Origin: an uncultured Pelagibacteraceae bacterium
GTDB lineage: Bacteria > Pseudomonadota > Alphaproteobacteria > Pelagibacterales > Pelagibacteraceae
Direction of reading: 5' to 3'
Length of the DNA: 61,641 nucleotides
Assembly (NCBI GenBank): GCA_902515985.1
Contig: CABXWY010000006.1
Span: forward strand, 1 to 61,641
Shown: in pieces, positions 2,281-56,466 of the stretch
How the letters are laid out: each line of letters starts with the position of its first letter
How positions within the stretch are numbered: position 1 is the first letter of the stretch
Notes under the pieces: generated by a model
The model's input: the letters and a program-made list of their open reading frames with translations, nothing else
Databases searched by the model: none
Told to the model about the DNA's origin: nothing
Program-made: the position numbers and the translations under genes

Positions 2281-3605
2281 TTTTTTTTACTTTGATTTAT
2301 AATTTTTACAATTTCGTCAATGTTTAAATTTTTAGAGTCATTACCGACATTAATAAATTCAAAATTATCACCTTCGGTTTTATTACCTATTATGATTTGA
2401 AATGGTATACCTATAAGATTAAATTTTTTCATTTTTGCTGAAAAACTTTCTTCTGTATCATCAATAATGTAATCAACATTATGTTCTTTTAATTTTTTTG
2501 TTAAATTAATTGCTTTATCAATATTTTTCTTATCTCCTTTGTTTATCAAAGGTATAATTGCACAGTCATATGGTGAAACTGACATTGGCCACTTCATAAT
2601 TTCTTTTTTATCATCATATTTTGCCTCAATTATGGCTCCTACAAGTCTTGAAACACCAACGCCATATGATCCCATTTTTACAAATTCTTTTTTTCCCTGA
2701 AAATCAACACTAGAGTTCATTGGTTTAGAATATTTATCACCGAAATAAAAAATATGCCCTACTTCAATACCTTTTGTTTTTAATCTAAATTCCTCAGGTA
2801 CTTTATCATTAAAATCTTTTTCGTTATACTTTTCATCTGTTACTGAATAAAATTTTTCAAATTCGCCTCTTAGATTTTTTAAAGATTCTTTTTGAAGTTT
2901 AGTTTCATCACTTTTTACATCAAAAATTCTTTTATCAGTATAAATTTTACTTTCACCAGTATCTGCTAAAATTATAAATTCATGTGAAAGGTTACCTCCA
3001 ATTGGACCTGTATCTGCTGCCATTGGTATTGCTGATAAATTTAATCTCTTAAACGTTTTTAAATAAGCAAGAAAAAATTTATTGTAAGAAAATAAAGCTT
3101 CATCATCGTTAATATCAAAAGAGTATGCATCCTTCATATAAAATTCTCTGCATCTCATTATTCCAAATCTTGGTCTTAATTCGTCTCTAAATTTCCACTG
3201 AATGTGATAAAGGAGTTGAGGTAATGACTTGTATGATTTTACACTTGTTCTGAATATATCTGTTACTAATTCTTCATTAGTTGGCCCGTAAAGCATATCT
3301 CTGCTTTGTCTATCCTTGATTCTCAACATTTCTTCACCATAATCCTTATATCTTCCACTTTCTCGCCAGATTTCTGCTGATTGAATTGTTGGCATTAGGA
3401 TCTCTTGTGCTCCAATTTTATCTTGTTCTTCTCTTACTATTTTTTCAATTTTTTTCATAACTTTAAAACCTAGTGGTAGCCAAGAATAAATTCCTGCTGA
3501 TGATTGTTTAATCATCCCAGTTCTAAGCATTAGCTGATGTGACTTAATTTTAGCCTCGGCAGGATTATTTTTTAATATTGGAATGAAAGATTTTGAAAAG
3601 AACAT
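2277..3605 (-). CDS. proS: Prolyl-tRNA synthetase, short form without insertion editing domain
   Basis: This is a class II aminoacyl-tRNA synthetase of 442 residues that charges tRNA-Pro with proline. Motif 1 and motif 2 regions are recognisable (LPLGFKVMKKIEKIVREE; FRDELRPRFGIMRCREFYMKDAYSF) and motif 3 is GSYGVGVSRLVGAIIEA, followed by the anticodon-binding domain. Common bacterial ProRS is about 570 residues with an editing insertion between motifs 2 and 3. Here that stretch is short, as known for alphaproteobacterial and mitochondrial enzymes. Proofreading of Ala-tRNA-Pro would then need a separate protein, and none is visible here. There is a 34-bp gap to the upstream RNase J gene. Confidence 0.96.
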   Translation of the reverse strand: MFFSKSFIPILKNNPAEAKIKSHQLMLRTGMIKQSSAGIYSWLPLGFKVMKKIEKIVREEQDKIGAQEILMPTIQSAEIWRESGRYKDYGEEMLRIKDRQSRDMLYGPTNEELVTDIFRTSVKSYKSLPQLLYHIQWKFRDELRPRFGIMRCREFYMKDAYSFDINDDEALFSYNKFFLAYLKTFKRLNLSAIPMAADTGPIGGNLSHEFIILADTGESKIYTDKRIFDVKSDETKLQKESLKNLRGEFEKFYSVTDEKYNEKDFNDKVPEEFRLKTKGIEVGHIFYFGDKYSKPMNSSVDFQGKKEFVKMGSYGVGVSRLVGAIIEAKYDDKKEIMKWPMSVSPYDCAIIPLINKGDKKNIDKAINLTKKLKEHNVDYIIDDTEESFSAKMKKFNLIGIPFQIIIGNKTEGDNFEFINVGNDSKNLNIDEIVKIINQSKKN

Positions 3606-3639
3606 AGATTCATTTAATTGTTTAAATTTAAATAATCAA

Positions 3640-5298
3640 TTAAATTCTTACTAGATTTACATTGGTTATTGGCTTTTTTCCCGTTTTTTCTTTTGAATAT
3701 TTTTTACAAACTACTTTGATAGTATCTATAATATTTATCTGTTGTTTTTTGTTGTTTAAAGAAAATGTTTTAGTTGTTTTACTGATTTCCTCTTCAAGAC
3801 CATATTTAAAATCGTCATTTTCAATTACTGGTAAACCAACATAGGTAAGTATTGGTTTATCATGTAAGCTTCCATCTGAATTTATCAAAATTGTTACATC
3901 TAAAAAACCATAAGATGATAAATTTTTTCTTTCTTTGATTGATTGAGCATCTTCTTCCACACTAATATTGCCATCTACATATAATTTACCTGAAGGCGCT
4001 TTATCGTAAACTTCCGGCTTTAATCCAGGATATAACTTCACTATATCTCCATTTTCAACTAATACAGAGTTGGGCACCTGCATTTCTTTTGCAAAGTTTA
4101 TATGTTCTATCATATGTCGATGTTCACCATGAACAGGAATAATACATTTTGGTTTTACCCAATCATACATTTCTTTTAGATCTTCTCTATTAGGATGACC
4201 AGAAACATGAACAAATTCATTTTCCTCAGAAATTACCTCCAAACCTTCTTTAACTAATTGATTATGTAACTTATATAATTTCTTCTCATTGCCAGGAATT
4301 ATTTTTGATGAAAATATAACAGCATCTCCTTTTTCAATAACTACATCTGGATGTGTGAATTTTGCTATTCTCATCATTGCTCCCATTGGTTCACCTTGGC
4401 TACCAGTGCATAAATATACTATTTTTTCACTTGATAAATTTTTAGCTTCTCTTGGATCAATTGGCTCTATAACATTTTTTAAATAACCACATTTTCTTGC
4501 AGCTTTGAATATTCTATGCATTGATCTTCCGACCAAAGAAATATTTCTTCCGGTTTGTTTAGCGCAATGAAAAACCGTTTCCATTCTTGCAACATTCGAA
4601 GCAAAAGATGTAACTATTATTTTTTTTTTTAACCTACTCATTATATTAACAAGACTTTTTCTTACATCTAGTTCTGAACCGGTTTTTCCTAAACTAAATA
4701 CATTAGTTGAATCGCATATCATTGCCAAAACTCCTTCTTTACCAATTTCTTTAAGCCTTTTGGCATCTATATCTCCACCAATCAAAGGATTTGGATCAAC
4801 TTTCCAATCACCTGTATGAAGTATATTTCCAACAGGTGTTTGAATTTTTAAACCATTAGGTTCTAATATTGAGTGTGTCATTGTAATAAACTCAATACTA
4901 AACGGCTCAAGGTTCAATGTGCTGTTTAATTCAACAATTTTTAAATATGAGTTAATATCTATTTTTTTTTCTTTAAATTTTTCACTAATTAAAACTGCAG
5001 TGAAGGGTGTCGCATAAATTTTGCATTTTAATTTTGGCCAAATATGTACAATTGCACCTATATGATCCTCATGAGCGTGGGTTAAAACAATACCTAATAG
5101 ATCATCTTTTTTATCAATTATAAAACCAGGATCTGGATAAATTAAATCTATACCAGGCACAGTGTCATCAGCAAATGTAACACCAATGTCAACAATTATC
5201 CATTTTTGTTCACTTGGCTTTCCATAGGCAAAAAGATTCATATTCATACCTATCTCTCCAGATCCACCGAGTGGGCAAAATAATAATTCCTCTTTCAT
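3640..5298 (-). CDS. rnj: Ribonuclease J (metallo-beta-lactamase family RNase)
   Basis: This 552-residue protein has a beta-lactamase fold with the zinc motif HAHEDHIGA (about residues 74-82) and a beta-CASP domain with SGHPNREDL and PVHGEHRHM. These are typical of RNase J, a 5'-3' exonuclease and endonuclease for mRNA decay and rRNA maturation. RNase J is widespread in alphaproteobacteria as well as Firmicutes. The start follows the coaX stop directly. The C-terminal domain (about 450-552) matches the RNase J extension region in length. Confidence is high in the family; the physiological targets are not visible. Confidence 0.93.
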   Translation of the reverse strand: MKEELLFCPLGGSGEIGMNMNLFAYGKPSEQKWIIVDIGVTFADDTVPGIDLIYPDPGFIIDKKDDLLGIVLTHAHEDHIGAIVHIWPKLKCKIYATPFTAVLISEKFKEKKIDINSYLKIVELNSTLNLEPFSIEFITMTHSILEPNGLKIQTPVGNILHTGDWKVDPNPLIGGDIDAKRLKEIGKEGVLAMICDSTNVFSLGKTGSELDVRKSLVNIMSRLKKKIIVTSFASNVARMETVFHCAKQTGRNISLVGRSMHRIFKAARKCGYLKNVIEPIDPREAKNLSSEKIVYLCTGSQGEPMGAMMRIAKFTHPDVVIEKGDAVIFSSKIIPGNEKKLYKLHNQLVKEGLEVISEENEFVHVSGHPNREDLKEMYDWVKPKCIIPVHGEHRHMIEHINFAKEMQVPNSVLVENGDIVKLYPGLKPEVYDKAPSGKLYVDGNISVEEDAQSIKERKNLSSYGFLDVTILINSDGSLHDKPILTYVGLPVIENDDFKYGLEEEISKTTKTFSLNNKKQQINIIDTIKVVCKKYSKEKTGKKPITNVNLVRI

Positions 5299-6039
5299 TT
5301 AATTATTTATTTCTATTACTTTTAAAAGACCATCAATAGTTAAATCTTTTTTTATAATAGGTTTATTTTTTTTTAAATTTTTAAACATATAAGATAAACC
5401 ACCTGTAAATATTAATTTGAAAGGTTTTTTTGTTTGTTTTTTAATCATTAAAATTATGTTGTCAATCAGACCTAAGTAACCCCAATAAAAACCAGATTTA
5501 ACGGCTAAATTAGTATTAGTGCCAACTACTTTTGAAATTTTAGACAAATTGATTGAGGGGATTAATGACGCTTTTTTTGTTAAAGTATTTAAAGATAAAG
5601 AAACACCTGGTGCAATTACACCACCATAATAGGTATTTTTAACGATAACATCAAATGTAGTTGCAGTTCCAAAATCGACAACTATAAAATTATTTTTATT
5701 ATCAATTACACTAATTGCATTAGCTATTCTATCTGATCCTACTTGTGATCTATTCACTTTAAGTTTAACTAATTTAGAAAAATTTATATTTTTTAATTCA
5801 CTACATTTGGTTTTGAATTTAATATTCAAAAAATTCTTAATCAGTCTATAAGCATCTGGAACGACACTGCAAAATAATGCAGTTTTAACTTTTTTATTTT
5901 TCATAAATTTAAGTTTCTTATTTAAATAGTTTTTTGATATAAATTTTGTCTTAAAAATAATTTTTTTTTTTTTAATAAAATTTCTATTAAATAAAAATAT
6001 TTTAATTTCTGTATTACCTATATCGCCAATTAAATACAT
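5299..6039 (-). CDS. coaX: Type III pantothenate kinase
   Basis: CoaX phosphorylates pantothenate, the first step of coenzyme A synthesis. The motifs are DIGNTEIK near the N-terminus, GSDRIANA, DFGTATTFDVI and GGVIAPGVSLS, all in the CoaX order; this ASKHA fold differs from CoaA. I chose the ATG at 6039 (246 residues), giving MYLIGDIGNTE, because CoaX proteins start just before the DxGNT motif. The ATG at 6069 would add 10 residues of low-complexity sequence and overlap birA by 26 bases. The BirA-CoaX-RNase J order is familiar in alphaproteobacteria. Confidence 0.92.
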   Translation of the reverse strand: MYLIGDIGNTEIKIFLFNRNFIKKKKIIFKTKFISKNYLNKKLKFMKNKKVKTALFCSVVPDAYRLIKNFLNIKFKTKCSELKNINFSKLVKLKVNRSQVGSDRIANAISVIDNKNNFIVVDFGTATTFDVIVKNTYYGGVIAPGVSLSLNTLTKKASLIPSINLSKISKVVGTNTNLAVKSGFYWGYLGLIDNIILMIKKQTKKPFKLIFTGGLSYMFKNLKKNKPIIKKDLTIDGLLKVIEINN

Positions 6040-52124: not shown

Positions 52125-53319
52125 CTGGTTTCTCTTTTATTGGTAAATGTATTAAACCAGCAAATAAAGATAATGCAATTGCCAAATACCACGCATAATC
52201 ATAAGAACCATATAGGTCATAAAATAAACCACCTAGATAGGCACCAAAAAAAGATCCAATTTGATGACTTAAAAAAACTAACCCATAGAGTAGTCCTAAG
52301 TATCTTGTTCCAAATATATGGGCTACTATTCCACTAGTTGCTGGGACTGTTGAAAGCCATAAAAAACCAAAACTAGCGCCAAAAAAAATGGAAATAATTG
52401 TACTAGGTGGTGAAAATATAAATATACAAATTGAAACTCCTCTTAATAAGTAGATTATACTCAGTATAATTTTTTTACTCATTTTTGTTGATAAGTAACC
52501 ACTAAGTAATGATCCAATTATATTAAAAAATCCAATTAGAGATAAAATTACTGCAGCTGTCCAATCAGCCAATCCTCTATCAGCGACATATTTTGGGACA
52601 TGTGTTCCAACTAAAGTAATGTGAAACCCACATACAAAAAAGCCAGCTATTAAAAGTAAATAACTTTTATTTTGAAAAGCTTCTTTTAAAGCTCCCATAG
52701 TGTCTTGTTTAAAATTGGTATCATTGGATTGAACCACGCTAGGTGATCTAACAAAATAGCCAACCACAAGCCCAAAAGTTAAAAAAATCATGAATATGAA
52801 TAATGTTTGTTCCCATCCGTTAGAACCCAAAGAATATTTTGTAAATAATGGTGACAAAAAATATCCAAAAGATCCAACGGCAGTAACAATGCTCATCGCA
52901 ATAGTCCGATTTGATAATGGAAAATGCTTTCCTACAATTGACATTGGAATACTAATTGCCGTCCCACCACATCCTATTCCAATCAAAACACCTAAACTTA
53001 TTTGAAAATAGATTCCAGTATTTGGTCCATTGTATAATAAGAAAACACCTAAAATATAGAAGAGAAATGCAAGTATGATTGCTCTATGCCCACCATATTT
53101 ATCAGCAATAGCTCCAAATATTGGTCCTGATAAGCCCCAGCCCAACATTTGAATGCCAATTGCTAGACCGAATTCCGTATTAGAGATTCCAAGATCATTA
53201 TTAAAATCGATAAAAAACATTCCAAAAACTTGTCTAACGCTTAGTGACACAAGAACAACTAAGCATGCAGATATCAATGTTATAAGCACTACACGATTAT
53301 TAATGAATTTTTCACCCAT
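52102..53319 (-). CDS. MFS transporter
   Basis: This 405-residue, 12-helix major facilitator carries GAIADKYGGHRAIILAF (the loop 2-3 signature) and the matching GSLLSGYLSTKMSKK in the second half. The general appearance is of the monocarboxylate/oxalate-formate group (for example LGWGLSGPIFGAIADKYG and FFGAYLGGLFYDLYGSYDYAWYL). It is located between metC and pabB and overlaps pabB by 23 bases, so it is translationally linked. The substrate is unknown. Confidence 0.88.
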   Translation of the reverse strand: MGEKFINNRVVLITLISACLVVLVSLSVRQVFGMFFIDFNNDLGISNTEFGLAIGIQMLGWGLSGPIFGAIADKYGGHRAIILAFLFYILGVFLLYNGPNTGIYFQISLGVLIGIGCGGTAISIPMSIVGKHFPLSNRTIAMSIVTAVGSFGYFLSPLFTKYSLGSNGWEQTLFIFMIFLTFGLVVGYFVRSPSVVQSNDTNFKQDTMGALKEAFQNKSYLLLIAGFFVCGFHITLVGTHVPKYVADRGLADWTAAVILSLIGFFNIIGSLLSGYLSTKMSKKIILSIIYLLRGVSICIFIFSPPSTIISIFFGASFGFLWLSTVPATSGIVAHIFGTRYLGLLYGLVFLSHQIGSFFGAYLGGLFYDLYGSYDYAWYLAIALSLFAGLIHLPIKEKPVERIQTV

Positions 53320-54494
53320 TATTTAATATATTTTAATGATTTTCGAATATCTTCTATAAGATCTTTAGGATCTTCAAGTCCAATATGCAATCTAACAATA
53401 AATTCATTTTTTTTTAAATTTAAAAACTTTCTATTACCTTGTTCTTTGATTTCCTGATGAAGGGCCAGACTTTCAAATCCACCCCAACTGTAACCATGTC
53501 CAAAAAAATTTAGAGAATTTACAAATTTATCAATAGATTTCTTATCTTTGGATTTTATTTTCATACCCATCAAACCTGAAGATCCTGAGTAATATTTTTT
53601 CCATAACTTGTAATTTTTAGAATTTTTTTTATAAGGATACAAGACTTCAATATTTTTCTTTTTTAACAAAAATTTTACAATAAGATTTGTATTTTGTTCA
53701 TGTCTATCTAATCTAACATCTAATGTTCTTAAACCTCTCATAATAAAATAAGCATCATCAGGGCTTAATCTTAAGCCAGTCATATTTTGAGCTAATAAAA
53801 CTTTTCTAAATATTTTTTTACTTACTGCTAAAGTACCCCCCATAACATCCGAGTGCCCTGAATAATATTTAGTTGCAGATACTATTGATAAATCAAAACC
53901 TAATTTAATGGGCCTTAAAAAGTAGGGAGTACCCCATGTATTATCAATTGCTGTATAAATTTTTTTTTTTTTTGCTATAGAAAGTATTTTACCCAAGTCT
54001 TGAAACTCAAATGTATTACTTCCAGGATTTTCAACATAAATGAGTTTAGTTTTATTCGTAATATTTTTTTTGATTGTATCTAGATTGTTTGGATCATAAA
54101 ATTTTGCAATTATGTTAAATTTGTTTAAATACTTTTCAGTTAATAACCTGGTCGGACTATATACTGGATCAGCTATTATTAGTTCATTACCTGGCCTTAA
54201 AACACTAAATAGACATAAAAAAACTGCCCCAAAACCTGTTGGTGTCAAAAATGTGTGATATGATTCTTCCATTTTTGTTAACATTTTTTCTAATTCAAAA
54301 GTAGTAGAAGTACCTTGTCTTCCGTATTCAAAATGTCCACCTTTAGGATTCTTTAAATTTTTTTTCTGAGTCTGTCTTAAATCTTTCATGGATTTAAAAA
54401 CCATTGTGGAGGTTCGAACTAATGGTGGATTTACTGAGCGATTTTTAAAGTCTTTATAAGTGTGTTTAAGATAAGTTTTGATAGAATTTGCCAT
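53319..54494 (-). CDS. metC: Cystathionine beta-lyase type PLP enzyme
   Basis: This is a 391-residue Cys/Met-metabolism PLP enzyme. The PLP lysine is in SIVSATKYYSGHSDVMGG (about residue 204), and the N-terminal NPPLVRTSTMVFKS, FEYGRQGTSTTFELE and the AIDNTWGTPYFLRP aspartate fit cystathionine beta-lyases. It would cleave cystathionine to homocysteine, pyruvate and ammonia. Related gamma-lyases cannot be excluded. It shares its last base with the MFS start and is divergent from the 27-residue peptide gene. Confidence 0.87.
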   Translation of the reverse strand: MANSIKTYLKHTYKDFKNRSVNPPLVRTSTMVFKSMKDLRQTQKKNLKNPKGGHFEYGRQGTSTTFELEKMLTKMEESYHTFLTPTGFGAVFLCLFSVLRPGNELIIADPVYSPTRLLTEKYLNKFNIIAKFYDPNNLDTIKKNITNKTKLIYVENPGSNTFEFQDLGKILSIAKKKKIYTAIDNTWGTPYFLRPIKLGFDLSIVSATKYYSGHSDVMGGTLAVSKKIFRKVLLAQNMTGLRLSPDDAYFIMRGLRTLDVRLDRHEQNTNLIVKFLLKKKNIEVLYPYKKNSKNYKLWKKYYSGSSGLMGMKIKSKDKKSIDKFVNSLNFFGHGYSWGGFESLALHQEIKEQGNRKFLNLKKNEFIVRLHIGLEDPKDLIEDIRKSLKYIK

Positions 54495-54569
54495 AAATAA
54501 ATTTGATATGTGAGATTGACAATGCTATATCCACAAAATAAGTCAATAAAATTATAATTTGAGGTAAAT

Positions 54570-54653
54570 ATGGGATATCCAAAAAAACATAGAGGCCGAA
54601 GAAAAATGGGCTCAAAAAAAAGAAGAGCAAGAAAAAAAAATAAAAAGAAATAA
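54570..54653 (+). CDS. 27-residue highly basic peptide, AURKAIP1/COX24 (bS22)-like
   Basis: A strong ribosome-binding site (GAGG, 6 bases before the ATG) leads into a 27-residue frame of which about 17 residues are Lys or Arg. It begins MGYPKKHRGRRKMG and continues KKRRARKKNKKK. The spacing of the RRKMGSKKRRARKK core resembles the AURKAIP1/COX24 (bS22-like) small ribosomal peptides of other bacteria; the alternative is a bTHX-like peptide. It lies 11 bases before the next membrane protein gene. Rare clear ribosome-binding sites in this genome make real, strong translation likely. Confidence 0.65.
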   Translation: MGYPKKHRGRRKMGSKKRRARKKNKKK

Positions 54654-54664
54654 TCAAACCCAAA

Positions 54665-55351
54665 ATGGATAGTATTCAAAAAGTTAGATCCATAACTTTA
54701 TGGATTTTTATAGTTCCATTCGTGGCAATAAATGCCTGTTTAATTTTGATTACGCAGTTTCACAGTCTTTTCCATCCTGAAGATATTATACTTAATACAC
54801 TCCCCTACATTGATGGTGGAGCATCAATAAGTCGAACTGCAAGAGTTTTTCCTACTTATTTAATTTTCAAGCCTGCTATGTTCCTTACTTCATATTTATT
54901 AATAAAATATTGGATTTATAATAAAAATATAATTCTCTCGTTAGAAAAAAATAATAAGAATGTAAATAAAATAATATTTTTTGGAATTGGTTCAGCAATA
55001 TTATTAACTATTCATTCTATCTTCCTTGGTGTTAAGTTTGATTATGATTTGTATAAACTGTTTAGAAGAGTTGTAATGCTTTTTTTTATAATTTTTGAAA
55101 TTGTGGCTCAAGCATACTTGGTTATTACATTGTATAAATTAAAAAATAAAATAATAGCCAAAATCAATTTTAAATTTTTAAAATTAAAAGGATTATTGGT
55201 AATTTTATTAATCGTTGTAGCAATTTTAGCTATTCCAATTGTAAGCATGCCAGGTAACAAGTTTATAAAACATGCTCTAGAGTGGGATTATTTTGTAGGT
55301 GTAATAAGTTTTTATTTACTTACTTACTTTATGTGGAAAAAAAAATATTAA
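54665..55351 (+). CDS. 228-residue membrane protein, possibly Frag1/DRAM-like
   Basis: This protein has about six hydrophobic helices (roughly residues 11-33, 65-85, 100-120, 135-160, 173-195 and 205-225). The first long loop has [27 protein letters not shown], which vaguely resembles the first-loop pattern of Frag1/DRAM/Sfk1 membrane proteins; this is a weak resemblance. No catalytic motif is visible. It follows the 27-residue basic peptide and overlaps the convergent mnmA stop by 4 bases. Confidence 0.72.
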
Positions 55352-56466
55352 CTCTTTGAAATCCATCCACCACCAAGAACCTTGTCTCCAAATTTATCTT
55401 TTGAGTAAAATACACATGCCTGGCCTGGTGATATACCAAATTCATCATCAAAAAGATTAAGATGAGCAAATTTATCTTTTATATTTAATTTAGATCTAAT
55501 TAATTTTCCTGTTGATCTTACTTTTACAAATATTTCTTTATCAAAATCTTTTTTATCTGCTAAAAGATTGAGATCTCTCAATATTATATCTTTTTTTAAT
55601 AATTCTATTTTTGGTCCAACAATTATTTCATTTTTTTTTGGATCTATATTGATAACATATAAAGGGTCTTTGGCAGCAATTTTAATACCTCTCCTCTGAC
55701 CAATTGTAAAATTTACAATTCCATTATGAACTCCTAGAACTTTCCCATCAGAGCTTTTAATATTTCCTTTTTTAAATGCGTCTGGTCTTATTTTTTCAAT
55801 CACCGAAACATAGTCGCCGTTTGGAACAAAGCATATATCCTGGCTATCAGGTTTGTCAGCAACATTTAAACCTAATTCTTTAGCAATTTCCCTTGTTTCA
55901 GATTTGAACATCCCTCCCAATGGAAATCTCAAATAGTTTAATTGTTCCCTTGTTGTATTAAATAAAAAATAACTTTGATCTCTATTCTCATCCACAGCTC
56001 TATACATATTCGTTGTATTATTTTTTGTTAAACTCTTTACATAATGACCAGTTATTAATGCATCTGCTTTTAAATTTTTTGATTCTTGAAATAAGTCGTT
56101 AAATTTAACAGTTTTGTTACATTGAACGCATGGAATAGGAGTCTCTCCATTTAAATAACTTTCAACAAAATTATCAACAACACTTTCTTTAAATTTGCTT
56201 TGGTAATAAAAAATTTTATGATCAATATCTAATTTTTGAGCAACACGCTTTGCATCCATTATATCCTGGCCTGTGCAGCATTGCTTAGTATTCTTACTTT
56301 CTTTATTATCATCATAAAGTTTTAATGTAACTCCAATGATTTTATACCCCTCTTTTTTCATGATGCCTGCAACTGTTGAGGAGTCAACACCTCCTGACAT
56401 AGCAATTACTACCTTTGTATCTTTTGGGTCTTTATCCAAACCTATAGAGTTTAATTTTGTATTCAT
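55348..56466 (-). CDS. mnmA: tRNA-specific 2-thiouridylase
   Basis: This 372-residue enzyme puts sulfur on U34 of Lys, Glu and Gln tRNAs. The PP-loop [15 protein letters not shown] is near the start (about residues 23-37). The first catalytic cysteine region is [13 protein letters not shown] and the second is [13 protein letters not shown]. The C-terminal beta-barrel segments ([12 protein letters not shown]) are present. A sulfur carrier such as an IscS/Tus route or a rhodanese would be the donor; a rhodanese gene is nearby but not adjacent. Confidence 0.97.

Follow-up and report, generated by a model that had tools for sequence, protein, structure and literature searches.

A conserved, phage-borne 27-residue basic peptide of Pelagibacteraceae and other streamlined alphaproteobacteria: a candidate ribosomal-type RNA-binding microprotein

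Very small basic proteins of the ribosome, and ribosomal proteins carried by phages, are the closest described systems for the gene presented here. According to the accessible part of the paper on the Borrelia ribosome (PMC10618245), the bS22 protein of that organism was unannotated before the ribosome structure, was first seen as density, and is likely to turn up in other species. Ribosome structures of the Bacteroidota type and of Borrelia contain a bS22 of 28-30 residues. Published phages carry ribosomal proteins, and a pelagiphage bS21 enters ribosomes, as described in the accessible part of PMC6375957. For the SAR11 strain HIMB5, three or more short intergenic ORFs with no defined function are reported, the HIMB5 motifs being described as restricted to SAR11 or to unassigned metagenomes (accessible part of PMC6429828). 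Searches of the accessible literature on the core string of the present peptide, on Pelagibacter small proteins and sORFs, and on SAR11 ribosomal proteomics found no description of it, and the accessible part of PMC2704228 makes no mention of it.

The gene is located in the window, that is, the whole stretch of 61,641 nucleotides that was analysed. The features of the locus are as follows.

53319..54494, minus strand: divergent Cys/Met-metabolism PLP enzyme, cystathionine beta-lyase-like; 136 of 148 Pelagibacteraceae contexts have it upstream
54561..54565, plus strand: Shine-Dalgarno-like GAGGT, read from the upstream sequence
54570..54653, plus strand: basic microprotein gene of 27 codons plus stop, assigned by translation and conservation
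54570..54626, plus strand: near-invariant core M-x-YPKKHRGRRK-x-GS-x-x-RR, residues 1-19, from 20 distinct cellular forms and the viral members
54627..54650, plus strand: variable basic tail, residues 20-27, with K/R exchange at 21-23 and longer in phage members
54665..55351, plus strand: membrane protein ORF, function unassigned, 11 bases downstream of the peptide gene; its membrane nature is read from the sequence
55348..56466, minus strand: mnmA/trmU-like tRNA 2-thiouridylase gene, the name being our assumption from the sequence; 132 of 148 Pelagibacteraceae contexts have it downstream

Translation of positions 54570-54653 on the plus strand gives MGYPKKHRGRRKMGSKKRRARKKNKKK followed by a stop codon, and the ATG is directly preceded by GAGGTAAAT. 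Lysine and arginine make up 59% of the peptide, and 63% when histidine is included. The preliminary description had pointed to an unlisted 27-residue Lys/Arg reading frame with a ribosome-binding site before the ATG, nearly two-thirds basic residues, and a membrane protein gene 11 bases downstream; the translation, the upstream sequence and the start of the membrane ORF at 54665 bear out all of these. A Shine-Dalgarno-like core (AGGA, GGAG, GAGG or AGGT) occurs upstream in 132 of the 168 distinct contexts described below, and several other clades, for example the HIMB59-like one, have no clear Shine-Dalgarno sequence. A promoter scan returned 2 promoter-like sites against 2.3 expected, and no promoter is claimed.

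Conservation of the frame in relatives, which the preliminary description had proposed as a check, was assessed on 180 strongly matching full-length loci, leaving out one contig-end fragment (L171). In 168 distinct contexts, these loci have 149 different coding sequences that specify 20 different proteins, numbers that understate the true diversity, as the loci are mostly best-scoring and mutually related. The exact window peptide is present in 112 of the 168 contexts, where it is encoded by 98 distinct coding sequences, with synonymous variation at 25 of its 27 codons; the remaining two specify Met. The 27-residue ORF is a real gene, far beyond chance, since 149 different coding sequences yield only 20 proteins in 168 contexts. 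For all selection loci pS is 0.55 and pN is 0.064 (ratio 0.12). The frame is thus kept in relatives, and these values argue strongly that the peptide is under strong purifying selection.

The constraint on amino acids spans the whole peptide. In the 20 cellular forms, positions 1, 3-12, 14, 15, 18, 19 and 25 show no change at all, K to R included, while K and R exchange freely at positions 21-23 (19 of the 20 forms). The motif M-x-YPKKHRGRRK-x-GS-x-x-R is common to nearly all members, cellular and viral, with R in place of H in one viral copy. Invariant Y, P, H, G and S residues are not what one would expect of a generic polycation.

The distribution of the gene in cells is patchy: it is common in some streamlined alphaproteobacteria and was not found in a close relative, the sister family f2. 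In a first search of 61 genomes, 32 of the 37 from the window's own genus matched (the window's genome included) and none of the 24 from the sister family. In a Pelagibacterales sample, 219 of 297 genomes matched, all of them Pelagibacteraceae (family f1) and all with E≤1.7e-6; the count at E≤1 is 222, from which three weak sister-family matches (E 0.07-0.14) were excluded. No weight is given to these three, one of which (L172) overlaps a 391-residue reading frame and the others of which lie in genomes G088 and G117, because a later search (A3) of 53 sister-family genomes, 12 of high quality, gave no match at E≤0.1. The A3 search does match elsewhere. Likewise, three mnmA neighbourhoods of the sister family contain no such ORF. 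Its absence from the sister-family results indicates that the peptide is not generally essential.

A scan of genome contigs found at least 428 relatives; the best 80 of these are all identical in protein, and their carriers are titled Pelagibacteraceae or Pelagibacterales. A profile search of a class sample of 385 genomes gave clear matches (E≤4.2e-10) in four families, f32, f25, f142 and f1, and the loci of the first three all encode a 27-residue peptide. Eight weak class matches (L190-L197, E 0.003-0.045) contain no short ORF with the core and were dropped. The order that includes f32 and f142, which we take to be the HIMB59-like order, has matches in 120 of 150 genomes and in 20 of 20 of high quality. 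The f25 carriers are four matching genomes of one genus. A phylum sample of 398 genomes matched only in the window's genome and in one other genome of the Pelagibacteraceae.

Nearly all carriers have one match per genome. In each of five Pelagibacteraceae genomes examined that have no match to the peptide, mnmA has no match either; the same search missed mnmA in one of four sister-family genomes. This is suggestive of a block that is unassembled or deleted in these five genomes.

The gene is also carried by phages. Successive scans of viral contigs found the peptide in 12, then 25, 26 and finally 27 contigs. When at least two shared neighbouring ORFs are demanded, the 27 contigs fall into seven clusters, of 12, 9 and 2 contigs and four singles; one shared ORF as the threshold gives three clusters. 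By eye, the single ORFs shared between clusters resemble common phage genes, for example those of terminase or phosphatase. The viral nature of the contigs rests on IMG/VR and, for L280, L285, L286 and L291, also on their phage genes.

The set of 26 contigs encodes 14 different peptides, 28-40 residues long; the start codon is ATG in 24 contigs and GTG in two. All 26 have RRK, GS and R18, and K19 occurs in one, an invariance that is partly forced by the seeding of the viral scans with the core. A relaxed scan with Y3 and P4 left free returned the same 26 contigs, and one with H7 left free added a single contig with R at that position. No phage or plasmid record was matched by tblastn, the low-complexity filter probably masking such peptides, and blastn gave nothing useful.

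The second viral cluster (L285, L280) contains DnaA-C, HNH, exonuclease and integrase genes. Over the first 25 residues, three phage peptides (L285, L287 and L217) are identical to the cellular peptide of f142 (L189), which suggests a recent exchange between this cluster and hosts of the f142 type.

The near-single match per genome, the conservation independent of genome position, the residue-specific core and the carriage by phages point to a diffusible product that would recognise one conserved nucleic-acid structure. Among possible targets, the ribosome is the best candidate, since published phages carry ribosomal proteins such as the pelagiphage bS21. We therefore regard the product as a ribosomal-type accessory RNA-binding microprotein, also phage-borne, a reading for and against which the balance is about even and in which we infer the binding to the ribosome. 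Weighing against it are the failure to match any Pfam or NCBIfam family or PDB chain, the negative results in the sister family, the merely scattered rRNA positions that track the peptide and the head-module setting of one viral cluster, all described elsewhere in this text. A more specific proposal is tentative and stands somewhat below even likelihood: the peptide may be a previously undescribed 27-residue rRNA-binding ribosomal protein, shared by SAR11, f25 and the HIMB59-like order, all streamlined alphaproteobacteria, and probably with a binding site of its own; several kinds of phage would carry a substitute or altered copy with which to control the translation of their hosts.

For a 36-residue phage homologue, modelled as an isolated peptide from a seven-sequence alignment, AlphaFold2 predicts with mean pLDDT 87.6 and pTM 0.44 a helix that spans residues 15-34 and is preceded by coil over residues 1-14. 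A Foldseek search of the PDB with this model gave no match. In the proposed mechanism, residues 3-14 would be a sequence-specific arm, and the invariant segment M-x-YPKKHRGRRK-x-G would thread into a conserved rRNA pocket. Ser15 may cap the basic helix, the first turn of which would carry the invariant R18 together with R19, which one viral copy replaces by K. Nearby phosphate could be neutralised by the loose K/R tail. Once bound, the peptide would add to the stability of the ribosome, or adjust initiation or the joining of the subunits, in the manner of bS22, bTHX or bS21. A phage could supply its own copy, thereby keeping or altering the translation of its host.

The main alternative is a DNA-binding or DNA-condensing peptide, acting on nucleoid or virion DNA as a polycation of conserved sequence. 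The largest viral cluster (A) is the one most relevant here. Its contig L286 encodes a portal, a GroES-like co-chaperonin and a major head protein, and the cluster A portal is 55-57% identical to those of the pelagiphages HTVC027P and HTVC023P. Between portal and GroES, L286 (positions 2855-5747) and related cluster A contigs have a run of small basic genes; such a run is also present in HTVC027P and 023Pt_psg01, and its products are possibly virion DNA-associated proteins. In cluster A the peptide gene has small basic genes around it in the stretch from portal to capsid, and this setting in a head-gene module also suits DNA packaging. The copies in the second cluster and in L291 lie near HNH, exonuclease, DnaA-C or DNA-ligase genes, and the high content of basic residues (63%, histidine included) is in keeping with a DNA ligand as well. 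However, a single specific target is indicated by the invariance of Y, P, H (R once), G, G and S, together with the lack of K/R exchange at the basic core positions in the 20 cellular forms. Moreover, no copy is present within the fetched 13-20 kb around the portal in five relatives of cluster A that are cultivated or deposited, HTVC027P and HTVC023P among them. A role on DNA is on the whole rather unlikely.

The second alternative is a true bS22, of the AURKAIP1/COX24 type and eL41/mS38-like, that has diverged past recognition and occupies the pocket formed by 16S h2, h27, h44 and h45. The preliminary description had named AURKAIP1/COX24, bS22-like and bTHX-like peptides, and the search with the family profiles speaks against this naming. 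Eleven family members were compared with Pfam and NCBIfam, and there were no matches at E≤10. None of the 11 matched the bS22/AURKAIP1-COX24 profiles (PF08213, NF047430), both of which match the Msm bS22; none matched the bTHX profiles (PF17070, TIGR04560, NF011339), all three of which match the Thermus THX with E<1e-14; and none matched the eL41 profile (PF05162), which human eL41 matches at 3.9e-12. As controls, sequences of bTHX, bS22 and eL41 match their own Pfam families at E≤5e-12. A sequence search of PDB chains gave no match, nor did a comparison of two members with PHROGs. Of the broader claim of a ribosomal-type peptide, the part that stands is the tiny, basic, stand-alone, widespread and phage-borne character; membership of a named family is not supported by the profiles.

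In 61 genomes, 37 of the window's own genus and 24 of the sister family, the COX24_C and Thx profiles find nothing over their curated cut-offs, which for COX24_C agrees with a diverged bS22. Below the cut-off, at E≤10, weak matches occur in 3 genomes for COX24_C and in 23 for Thx, none of them the window's genome. One weak Thx match in the sister family (L036) overlaps a 506-residue reading frame. The protein bS21 is present elsewhere in the window's genome.

A 29-residue bS22 of the Bacteroidota type, near-identical to chains in the ribosomes 7jil and 9i5v, is matched by no Pfam or NCBIfam model, which is a gap in annotation tools. Since this protein fails the profiles as well, the failure of the present peptide lowers the probability of bS22 identity and not that of a bS22-like function. 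Direct alignment of the peptide with five bS22 sequences is no better than with shuffles (p 0.20-0.59), in a test that is weak because three of five control pairs of bS22 also fail: Fjo-Msm, Bbu-Msm and Bbu-Cac fail, while 9i5v-Cac gives p 0.04 and Fjo-Bbu p 0.0002. The same composition-controlled alignment gave nothing above shuffles for THX and eL41 either, with the weakness that the bS22 controls reveal.

Size, charge and the character of a hidden gene agree with the short bS22 of Borrelia and Bacteroidota. M, I or V is frequent at position 13; with the GS behind it, this resembles by eye the K-[VMI]-[AS]-T of short bS22. In the rRNA, 18 columns of 16S and 91 of 23S separate carriers from the sister family, many of them being gaps at the alignment ends. 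Only 16S position 1432 (E. coli numbering) and 23S positions 1167 and 1182 are derived in all carriers with sequence there relative to the sister family and three outgroups; with few independent clades and with rRNA incomplete in several, such scattered columns could be due to chance. Position 1432, which we take to be in h44, would fit the bS22 pocket. On the other side, G9 and G14, which never vary, and the lack of helix over residues 1-14 of the model appear ill-suited to the bent helix described for bS22. A diverged bS22 is quite unlikely.

As a third alternative, the peptide may bind some other structured RNA or a machine linked to translation; RNase P, tmRNA, tRNA and the degradosome are examples. 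The conservation evidence serves this reading equally, and the neighbours include mnmA and, in f25, a sigma-factor gene that we presume from its sequence to be rpoH-like, after which the peptide gene is placed in all four f25 loci (L185-L188). However, the neighbours are not conserved between clades: none of 20 contexts from f32, f25 and f142 matches the three SAR11 neighbours, and the gene is found there at unrelated genome positions. No specific link to such a machine was found, and we consider this reading improbable.

In Pelagibacteraceae the 228-residue membrane ORF (54665-55351) separates the peptide gene from mnmA in many contexts, though not in all. The encoded protein has no Pfam match over the cut-off (one weak match, NrsF) and none in NCBIfam or PHROGs. 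The membrane gene is downstream in 104 of 148 contexts, while in 42 of 148 mnmA follows on the opposite strand with no membrane-gene match; the pairing proposed in the preliminary description is thus specific to a lineage. A leader peptide or translational enhancer for this membrane gene, to which the 11-base gap in the window would be suited, is largely refuted and very improbable in view of those 42 contexts, the unrelated nearby genes of other clades, the amino-acid constraint over the whole peptide and an Rfam scan around the gene that gave no match.

SAR11 is among the most numerous bacterial groups in the ocean, and the present gene is a conserved SAR11 gene without a model in the family libraries searched, present on several kinds of phage. 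If the ribosomal-type reading is true, the peptide would be a missing part of the ribosome in SAR11 cells; otherwise it could be a new nucleic-acid-binding tool common to host and virus. With a profile made from the sequences of this family, annotation pipelines could detect the gene.

It remains to compare the peptide with the known systems. Like it, bS22 and eL41 are stand-alone basic peptides of 25-33 residues, and the measured bS22 forms contain 55-61% K and R. However, the core YPKKHRGRRKxGS is absent from the bS22 sequences seen, and the bent helix of bS22 differs from the arm and helix predicted here. The protein bTHX is located in the 30S head. In Thermus it has 27 residues, starts with MG and ends with KKK, and it is a glycine-containing basic peptide like that of the window; it differs in that its profiles do not match and that its similarity to the peptide is not above shuffles (p 0.46-0.89). 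The HIMB5 sORFs are also short ORFs of SAR11, compared here by their description in the accessible part of PMC6429828, their sequences lying in supplements. It is possible that the present gene was detected earlier as one of these anonymous sORFs. The phage-encoded bS21 and bL12 enter ribosomes (accessible part of PMC6375957), whereas the ribosomal nature of the window peptide is one that we infer. They are likewise small cellular genes found on several kinds of phage, and in the present case one of the viral clusters is related to pelagiphages.
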